Shown: positions 25,213 to 63,973 of the stretch, piece by piece
Layout of the letters: each line of letters starts with the position of its first letter
Numbering within the stretch: the first letter of the stretch is position 1
Source: Bacillota bacterium
GTDB lineage: Bacteria > Bacillota > Clostridia > Caldicoprobacterales > DTU083
NCBI GenBank assembly: GCA_029549985.1
Contig: JAKPIB010000015.1
Location: forward strand, 17,603 to 81,602
DNA: 64,000 nucleotides
Reading direction: 5' to 3'
Translations under genes and position numbers: made by a program
The notes under the pieces: model-generated
Database searches by the model: none
What the model was told of the DNA's origin: nothing
What the model saw: the letters and a program-made list of their open reading frames with translations, nothing else

Positions 25213-25390
25213 AGCATTTGTCCTGGGATGTGCGTTGATCTATTGTTTTTAACCCACAGAACACATACGGGAATCCGGAGTTTGCATGCTGATATCAGGC
25301 CCCGCCTGAGGGGAAGATTGAGGTATGCAACAGGAATCCCACCTGCTGAGAGGCGGGTATTAAAATCATAGGTGGACGGCATCATGGGAT
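25213..25390 (+). ncRNA. ssrS: Probable 6S RNA
   Basis: About 178 nt, no ORF. The two ends form a long closing stem: 25221-25242 pairs with 25369-25389 with a few bulges and G-U pairs. Inside is a large open bubble. Its 3' side carries a small hairpin, ACCTGC (25341-25346) with GCGGGT (25353-25358), as in 6S RNAs. A terminal arm follows: GGGAATCC (25269) with GGAATCCC (25333), GTTTGCATGC with GTATGCAAC, and a TCAGGC/GCCTGA cap. This rod-with-bubble plan mimics an open promoter and binds the sigma-A RNA polymerase. Identified from hand folding, not a covariance search; size and fold fit 6S well. Confidence 0.72.
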
Positions 25391-25424
25391 AATAAGCCCT
25401 CAATAGAGCGTTGAGGGCTTATTA
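25390..25424 (+). terminator. Stem-loop ending the 6S transcript
   Basis: TAATAAGCCCTCAA (25390-25403) and TTGAGGGCTTATTA (25411-25424) form a perfect 14-bp stem with a 7-nt loop. There is no long T-run, so it may act as a weak terminator or 3' end stabiliser. Confidence 0.6.
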
Positions 25425-60566: not shown

Positions 60567-60585
60567 TACTATTGTTGAATGATGC

Positions 60586-60620
60586 ACCCTATTTGTACAT
60601 CGCAAATAGGGTTATTTTAT
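60586..60620 (+). terminator. Terminator-like hairpin in the smpB leader
   Basis: ACCCTATTTG (60586-60595) pairs with CAAATAGGGT (60603-60612) and is followed by TATTTTAT. It lies 20 nt after the promoter and before smpB, so it could attenuate smpB-ssrA or merely end transcripts coming from rnr. Confidence 0.55.
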
Positions 60621-60641
60621 CGATTGGATGCTGATTATTCG

Positions 60642-61109
60642 ATGGCCGGTGAAGGAAGAAAGATAGTAGCACAGAATAAAAAAGCCCGTCACGATTATTT
60701 TATAGAAGAGACTTACGAAGCGGGCATAGTTCTGACCGGGACAGAGGTCAAATCCATCCGCCAGGGCAAGGTCAACCTGAAGGATAGCTATGCGGACATA
60801 AAGCACGGTGAGGTGCATGTGCATAATATGCATATAAGCCCATATGAAAAGGGCAACATCTTCAACCGTGATCCTCTCCGCAGCCGGAAGCTCCTCCTCC
60901 ACAAGAGGGAGATCAACAAGCTTATCGGCTATACCCAGCAGAAGGGTTATTCATTGGTACCTCTTCAGCTGTACCTTACCAGAGGCCTTGTGAAGGTCGA
61001 GCTTGCGGTCGCCAAAGGCAAGAAGCTTTACGACAAGCGTGAAGATATAGCCCGGCGTGACGCAAAGCGAGAGATGGAAAGGGCCTTCAAGGAACGAGGC
61101 AGAATGTAG
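60642..61109 (+). CDS. smpB: SsrA-binding protein SmpB
   Basis: 155 aa from ATG 60642, which gives the normal SmpB length; the longer frame from 60579 would start inside the leader hairpin region. The ribosome site is weak. It binds tmRNA and lets it enter stalled ribosomes. Signatures: [24 protein letters not shown] with [29 protein letters not shown], and the basic C-tail ([17 protein letters not shown]). The tmRNA gene starts 19 nt downstream. Confidence 0.95.
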
Positions 61110-61221
61110 CGGCTGCGCGTATAATCATGGGGGCGTATTGGTTTCGACGGGGATGATAGAGGCGCGAGAAGCGAGTCGCGGACTCCGGGGCCGCGTAAAC
61201 AACCTGGAATTAAAAATAAAC

Positions 61222-61254
61222 GCTAACAACGATAATTTAGCATTCGCAGCCTAA
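61222..61254 (+). other. tmRNA tag-peptide reading frame
   Basis: The resume codon GCT begins ANNDNLAFAA followed by TAA. The C-terminal LAFAA is a degradation signal of the kind read by ClpXP-type proteases. Confidence 0.9.
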
Positions 61255-61464
61255 GGCTGTGACGTCCGCCCTGCAGCACCCGCACTGCAAGAGCCGGGCG
61301 CCAGATTCGCGGGGAACCAGCCTGCCTAAGCTTTGCGGCAGGTGGGATCGATGAAGCTACTGAAGCTTAAATCCTGTCAGTAGGGAGTTAAGCGGAGGGA
61401 ACGTCAAAACACTGACTGCACTCGGAGAAGCTCTCGCCGATATATCTTCGGACAGGGGTTCGAC

Positions 61465-61741
61465 TCATAAAAGAATCGCCTTACCGGGCGACCGGTAAGT
61501 GAAAACTCGGCTTTATCGGTGAAACCGTAGCGCACATGCGCCGGCAACGCCGAGGGGTATGTGGGGAAACCCAACAGCCCTGTATCGACTTATAGGCATC
61601 TACGGGTGAGACCTAAGATGTACTAGGATGGAAGAGTCGAGATCAAGTCTCAATATATATCTTCCATAATACGCCGAGGGACTCAAAGTCGCATTTGAGT
61701 TCAAGACATAGTCAGCACCATTGGAAACAATGGATCATGTG
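61465..61741 (+). mobile_element. ORF-less group I intron in the tmRNA T-loop
   Basis: 277 nt. P1: exon CGAC plus intron TC (61461-61466) pairs with GAATCG (61473-61478). P2: CTTACCGG/CCGGTAAG around GCGA (61480-61499). P7: GACT (61680-61683) with AGTC (61710-61713) in AAGACATAGTC, the classic group I 3' core sequence. P8: CAAA/TTTG nearby, extended by flanking pairs. P9-type hairpin CCATTG-GAAA-CAATGG (61718-61733). The last base is G (61741). The first two intron bases (TC) equal the first two of the 3' exon, allowing P10. No homing endonuclease frame. P3-P6 were not fully drawn. Confidence 0.9.
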
Positions 61742-61764
61742 TCCCCTCGCCTCCACCAGTTAAC

Positions 61765-61797
61765 AAAAGGACTGTCAATAATATTGACAGTCCTTTT
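61765..61797 (+). terminator. Terminator of ssrA
   Basis: AAAAGGACTGTCAA (61765-61778) pairs with TTGACAGTCCTTTT (61784-61797), a perfect 14-bp stem ending in T-run. Confidence 0.9.
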
Positions 61798-63756: not shown

Positions 63757-63770
63757 GACAGCGAATGAAT

Positions 63771-63927
63771 ATTCTTTGTTAGGTGAGGCTACTATACGGA
63801 TATATGCTGCTACCCCGAAACGTCGAAAGACGCCAACGGGTCAACAGGCTTTATCGGATTAAGGTATAGCTTAACGCAGCTGGCGATCGGTCCTACGCTG
63901 TATAGTGCCAAAGCTCAACGAGTGAAG
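63771..63927 (+). promoter_or_regulatory. M-box (ykoK) magnesium riboswitch
   Basis: Near-perfect M-box consensus: GTTAGGTGAGGCT, ATACGGATATATGCTGCT, the GACGCCAA-GGGTCAACAGG core, ATCGG-TAAGG, and CGCAGCTGGCG, then GTGCCAAAGCTCAACGAGTG. Senses Mg2+ in the new transcript. When Mg2+ is plentiful the aptamer folds and transcription ends in the hairpin that follows. The regulated gene, probably a Mg2+ transporter (mgtE, corA or mgtA type), lies beyond the window. Confidence 0.93.
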
Positions 63928-63973
63928 AGTCACTTTATTGTTTGCTATGCCTTCACTTGTTGAAGGCTTTTTT
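63915..63973 (+). terminator. Riboswitch-controlled terminator
   Basis: TCAACGAGTGAAG (63915-63927) pairs with CTTCACTTGTTGA (63951-63963), one G-U pair, followed by six T. Its left arm overlaps the aptamer's end, as in other M-box leaders. Confidence 0.85.

Follow-up and report, generated by a model that had tools for sequence, protein, structure and literature searches.

A single full tmRNA gene was detected in this Bacillota genome, and its T-loop is very probably interrupted by a 277-nt group I intron, whose predicted self-splicing would join position 61464 to position 61742 and produce a tmRNA of 353 nt. All positions refer to the window, the whole stretch of 64,000 nucleotides that was analysed. 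The one feature of the gene worth specialist attention is the C-A pair at the predicted 5' splice site, although such pairs have already been counted in print.

An interrupted tmRNA gene next to smpB

The tmRNA gene is on the + strand and consists of two exons. The 5' exon (336 nt, 61129..61464; RF00023, 140.9 bits, and ARAGORN on the spliced form) contains the 5' strand of the acceptor stem, the tag frame ANNDNLAFAA and the 5' half of the T-arm, its last base being T-loop C59; the 3' exon (17 nt, 61742..61758; sequence and ARAGORN on the spliced form) contains T60, the 3' strand of the T-stem, the 3' strand of the acceptor stem with G3-U70, and an encoded CCA. The Rfam tmRNA match in the window extended over 61137-61467 and left the 3' end unmatched, and ARAGORN found no tmRNA in the unspliced window. 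Once 61465-61741 had been removed, the same program reported a complete 353-nt tmRNA with the tag ANNDNLAFAA and five of five T-stem pairs, bearing out the earlier note on this DNA, which had called the gene 277 nt too long and predicted that the T-arm would be restored. The exon parts still form the acceptor stem, the T-arm and the tag (ARAGORN, spliced form), and the features of a mature tmRNA are present: a resume site and a tag (both from ARAGORN on the spliced form), and the alanine acceptor pair G3-U70 (read from the sequence).

In the genome from which the window comes (96.7% complete, 52 contigs), one of 12 tmRNA matches scored above the family cut-off, corresponding to one full tmRNA gene; a DNA search of this genome with the whole gene gave no second copy, only a short match to the terminator palindrome. 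Directly upstream lies an intact smpB (60579..61109, +; NCBIfam NF003843, 227.9 bits; its true start may lie downstream of the one listed), encoding the partner protein of tmRNA, and the matches of this SmpB include Caldicoprobacterales names. A terminator-like hairpin (61765..61797, +) stands directly 3' of the tmRNA gene. The hexamer TATAAT occurs at 61120-61125 (+), 10 bases past the stop codon of smpB and 3 ahead of the first base of tmRNA; a consensus scan found no promoter at 61120-61125. Other RNA features of the window were: a 6S RNA (25217-25394, +, 76.3 bits), after which come genes for tRNA-Gln and tRNA-Glu; and an M-box magnesium riboswitch (63768-63933, +, 152.5 bits) near the window end, whose gene would fall past 64000.

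Boundaries and identity of the intron

The insertion point follows the sixth base of the seven-base T-loop (TTCGAC, intron, T). Three registers (61465-61741, 61466-61742 and 61467-61743) give the same spliced product, because TC is common to the start of the intron and the start of the 3' exon. Among the three, only 61465-61741 ends in G, and the last base was G in 96 of the 97 loci parsed without requiring a G (116 matches listed; the exception, L048, looks wrongly parsed); the boundaries proposed in the earlier note, 61465..61741 (+) with the omega G at 61741, are therefore likely the right ones.

A local search of 751 bases gave a match to Rfam Intron_gpI (RF00028) over 61450-61734 with 29.6 bits (E 1.5e-5), below the gathering score of 50 bits, which is an automatic threshold and not a defining feature of group I introns. 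When seven sister introns were compared with RF00028 in one 40-kb search, one reached the gathering score, one fell below it and five gave no match; since six of the seven miss it, this threshold is a poor guide for these tmRNA introns. A search of the whole genome with RF00028 returned no match, missing this intron too, and is uninformative on other group I introns. The fold of 61445-61760 had a z-score of -4.9, with none of 100 shuffles as stable. Among plus-strand ORFs of at least 25 aa, only a 28-aa one overlaps the intron, at the 3' edge, and no endonuclease gene was evident within the intron in this set, as the earlier note had also stated; minus-strand ORFs at the intron reach up to 92 aa. 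Sequence, homologues and covariation support the view that the tmRNA T-loop contains a group I intron in which no endonuclease gene is evident.

Predicted secondary structure and covariation

The fold, from P1 to P9.0 with P3 crossing P7, was drawn on the window sequence, and its pairs were counted on 48 aligned introns with their tmRNA flanks: the window's intron and 47 homologues (55 diverse introns minus L031, L080, L046, L059, L086, L101 and L105, odd or long). The drawn fold was paired in 95.5% of 3290 cells, versus 33-43% with the partner slid, a control that leans in favour of the fold because the structure was drawn on the window. Changes on both sides were found in 48 of the 70 pairs (the T-stem pairs of the exons accounting for 5 of the 70 and 2 of the 48), compared to a shuffled mean of 34.1, and this number was reached in none of 500 shuffles, a control that kinship can inflate.

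P1 (61461..61478, +) is formed by exon CGAC and intron UC with GAAUCG, the -1 pair being C61464 with A61475, and is followed by P2 (61480..61499, +), of 8 bp with a GCGA tetraloop; loop 2 is GNRA in 48 of 48 aligned introns. The group I core from P3 to P8, with its P3/P7 pseudoknot, is supported by covariation; changes in P3 are compensated, and P7 hardly varies. The 5' strand of P3 (61506..61511, +, with 61673-61678) was paired in 100% of cells, four of its six pairs changing on both sides. The domain that follows comprises P4 and P5 (61516..61553, +; omitting the leading 61, P4 is 516-521 with 548-553, 99.7% paired, and P5 is 525-527 with 542-544, 89.6%), and P6 and P6a with a GAAA loop (61555..61580, +; pair counts in the 48 introns). 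The 5' strand of P7 (61585..61590, +, with 61710-61714) was also paired in 100% of cells, and four of its five pairs never vary; by analogy with group I anatomy P7 is the predicted guanosine-binding site, with C61586 as its likely bulge. Between P7 and P3 there is an insertion (61597..61666, +; pair counts) made up of P7.1 (597-601 with 616-620) and P7.2 (629-633 with 662-666). P8 (61681..61700, +) changes on both sides in seven of seven pairs and was paired in 83.5% of cells. The conserved AAGACATAGTC segment (61703..61713, +), recognised by pattern and alignment, corresponds to J8/7 and the 3' strand of P7. At the 3' end (61715..61740, +; pair counts) P9.0 (G715-U740, C716-G739) encloses P9 (718-733), whose loop is GAAA in the window and in 44 of the 48 aligned introns; P9.0 was paired in 100% of cells and P9 in 84.7%. 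The fully paired P7 and the omega G61741 at the 3' end are the combination expected of group I, and the elements drawn in the earlier note (P2 with its GCGA loop, P8, the AAGACATAGTC segment and the GAAA-capped P9) were all found in place.

The C-A pair at the predicted 5' splice site

T-loop bases 54-59 read TTCGAC, which makes C61464 the -1 base and A61475 its partner in P1, so that the window intron departs from the usual U with G at this place, a point that had gone unnoticed in the earlier note. The -1 U-G rule of group I introns has exceptions and is for that reason not strictly defining. Of 104 distinct introns collected, 102 had U-G at -1 (101 by script, and L033 read by eye) and two had C-A, with no C-G and no U-A; among the 48 aligned introns the figures were 46 and 2. 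Both sets came from a parser that accepted a locus only with G as the last intron base and with all five T-stem pairs; their rows therefore cannot test the last base. The search patterns used for the order and the class admitted all four -1 combinations, and both C-A introns belong to the same family: the window's and that of another genus (G002).

Searches for further C-A introns were extended to three collections. In a class sample of 391 genomes 24 matched, and by their matched letters these were 17 U-G, 2 C-A (the window and G002) and 5 chance matches. A phylum sample of 398 genomes gave 36 matches listed, one of them the window and 19 others examined; the reversed pattern, used as a control in this sample, matched many genomes too, as by chance. 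The viral_contigs collection gave 45 stretches. The conserved segment AAG[AG].[AT]TAGTC was found within 700 bases downstream in none of the 64 matches examined in the phylum sample and viral_contigs. Among the papers listed by literature searches on C-A splice-site pairs, there was nothing direct and no experiment.

In the tree (L031, L080, introns above 450 nt and duplicates left out), the two C-A introns, those of the window and of G002, are sisters with 100/98 support. They fall in an eight-row clade (98/94) whose other members are five U-G introns from the same order and L086, likewise U-G. The fork joining L086 to the C-A introns is weak (89/40), and the exact ancestor of the C-A introns is not fixed by the tree. 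With the C-A introns nested among U-G ones, U-G probably preceded C-A. Position 59 was C in all five intronless tmRNA genes read in the window's family; since U-G introns surround the C-A introns and intronless family members carry C59, the likeliest origin of the C-A pair is a U-G ancestor in which exon and intron changed in a matched way, the pair retaining its wobble geometry. C-A wobbles in other RNAs need a protonated A. It is conceivable, though very unlikely in our estimate, that the C-A pair is a working natural re-keying, in which the guide base changed to A in a C59 family, and that, were the A protonated, maturation would be tuned by pH or conditions, splicing then gating the supply of the ribosome-rescue RNA.

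The departure from U-G, taken together with the Rfam score below the gathering score and with the lack of a full tmRNA match in the assemblies of six of 13 family genomes, might also point to a decayed or splicing-poor copy, ribosome rescue being left to another route, such as the ArfA- and RqcH-type systems known as alternatives. We consider this very unlikely: in the window's intron none of the core helices drawn is broken, and C-A accompanies such helices in two genera of the family, which argues for kept function; the exons still make the acceptor stem, the T-arm and the tag; smpB is intact next door; and six of seven sister introns likewise miss the gathering score. As for the family, RF00023 exceeded its cut-off in seven of the 13 genomes, and the other six, assemblies of 110 to 580 contigs, likely lack a full match through assembly gaps.

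The same spliced product would arise, with U restored at -1, if the 5' splice site lay one base further on, U61465 then being the -1 base (with A61474) and U61742 the last intron base. This shift is highly improbable, since it would end the intron in U, yet G was found in 96 of the 97 loci parsed without requiring it; it would create a -1 pair, U-A, seen in none of the 104 introns; and P9.0 makes G741 the last base. The preferred reading is an intron predicted to splice itself, with a C-A pair at position -1 and G61741 at its end.

Homologues and distribution

A pattern made of the conserved AAGANATAGTC segment followed by the tmRNA 3' end matched once in the window, in none of 100 shuffles, and in at least 116 stretches of the named genome collection. 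Among the 116 matches listed, 97 parse as introns at the same T-loop site (L031, L048 and L080 looking odd) and 19 do not, some of which may hold introns at other T-loop sites. Alignment and tree both placed the window intron among homologues at this T-loop site in many species. The notion that the insert is an integrated element or an assembly artefact with no ribozyme could appeal to the frequent use of tmRNA genes as integration sites of genomic islands (PMC11915505), but its probability is negligible, as the insert has no substantial plus-strand ORF, lines up throughout with T-loop introns from other genomes, which have the same ends and covary with it, and has a counterpart at the same site in a second family genome, 87.6% identical over 274 positions.

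Among 30 loci read from relatives, seven carried the intron (5 T59, 2 C59), 20 lacked it (16 C59, 4 T59) and three were unparsed; by one search pattern, intron presence is patchy in the order (seven of 30 genomes). Position 59 in the order was T in five and C in two intron forms, and T in one and C in 12 intronless forms (Fisher p 0.007, kinship ignored). T59 in the order thus goes mostly with an intron and C59 mostly without, as if the intron kept U59 or travelled with it. In the class, C and T were both common at position 59 of intronless genes among the matches listed. One genome of the order (G016) has an intron identical to that of Caldicoprobacter oshimai (L063); this identity and the SmpB matches make Caldicoprobacterales (Clostridia) the likely order of the window.

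Two loci showed a different arrangement: in L080:6400-6684 (Paucisalibacillus globulus) and L031:7331-7612 (Bacillus sp. T33-2), some 195 bases beyond an intronless T-arm and tmRNA 3' end there is a 58-nt piece composed of 41 nt of intron 3' end and a second 17-nt tmRNA 3' end. The piece may be the scar of an integrated element, which would make it a trace of one way in which the intron can be lost. A match to group II introns (RF02001, 64.2 bits; L126:2425-2505), cut by the locus end, lies in G002 about 180 bases after the tmRNA gene with the other C-A group I intron.

Proposed splicing and tmRNA maturation

In the splicing reaction that we infer, the guide strand GAAUCG would pair with exon CGAC and the first two intron bases (P1), and a guanosine bound in P7 would attack just 3' of C61464, which would sit in a C-A wobble where other introns usually have U-G. 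In the second step G61741, positioned by P9.0, would take over the guanosine site, and the 5' exon, now released, would attack just 3' of G61741. Since UC opens both the intron and the 3' exon, G61473-A61474 would likely hold first the intron start, as a P1 extension, and then the 3' exon, as a short P10; the proposed P10 has just 2 bp, and the UC/UC/GA arrangement occurs in 22 of the 48 introns. The Rfam score below gathering, the -1 C in place of U and the incomplete pairing of P8 and P9 also count against this scheme.

Without splicing the T-arm could not form and alanine charging would be expected to fail. Because the genome yielded one full tmRNA gene and the insert cuts its T-arm off from the acceptor strand, the predicted ribozyme is probably needed for trans-translation. 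This dependence is a sound deduction from gene structure; like the self-splicing step and the P10 swap, it is inferred.

Comparison with known tmRNA introns

In this gene an RNA required for ribosome rescue is coupled to a ribozyme that is likely to be self-splicing. The C-A clade offers a naturally occurring double change in the base pair marking the group I 5' splice site, and a comparison of the native C-A intron with its U-G neighbours of the same order could tell whether the ribozyme reads wobble shape and not bases. The gain is modest, because the wider arrangement is already known. The earlier note had called such introns known but rare: known they are, but 'rare' is no longer apt, Nawrocki, Petrov and Williams (2025, PMC11915505) reporting 883 intron-form tmRNAs, most of them at this T-loop position.

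By our reading of the numbering in that paper, the window gene has the T-loop position 7 form described there (intron after the sixth of seven loop bases) and falls in the same size class (mean 293 bp, 843 founding sequences); it also shares the last-base G, the lack of an evident endonuclease gene (mostly none in that set) and the assignment to Bacillota (most of that set). U at -1 and G as last base are stated there as the rule for these introns, and the window differs from most of the set in its -1 C with A, a combination reported in 15 of the 883.

Three individual introns allow a closer comparison. The tmRNA intron of Clostridium homopropionicum (L011) is homologous to the window's from end to end (76% identity over 266 aligned positions), and its P1 stretch differs at the -1 base and its partner only; unlike the window intron, it has U-G at -1 and scores 54 bits with RF00028, above the gathering score. 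The G002 intron (L126/L158), from another genus of the family, shares the C-A pair, the site and 87.6% identity over 274 positions with the window's, and differs in being 390 nt long and in carrying additional stretches around P5, P7.2 and P8. The Clostridium botulinum intron (287 nt), compared by description, is likewise a group I intron in tmRNA, and PMC2729099 describes it as previously shown to be self-splicing. The window gene is therefore clearly a member of a published kind, whose wider arrangement was already known.
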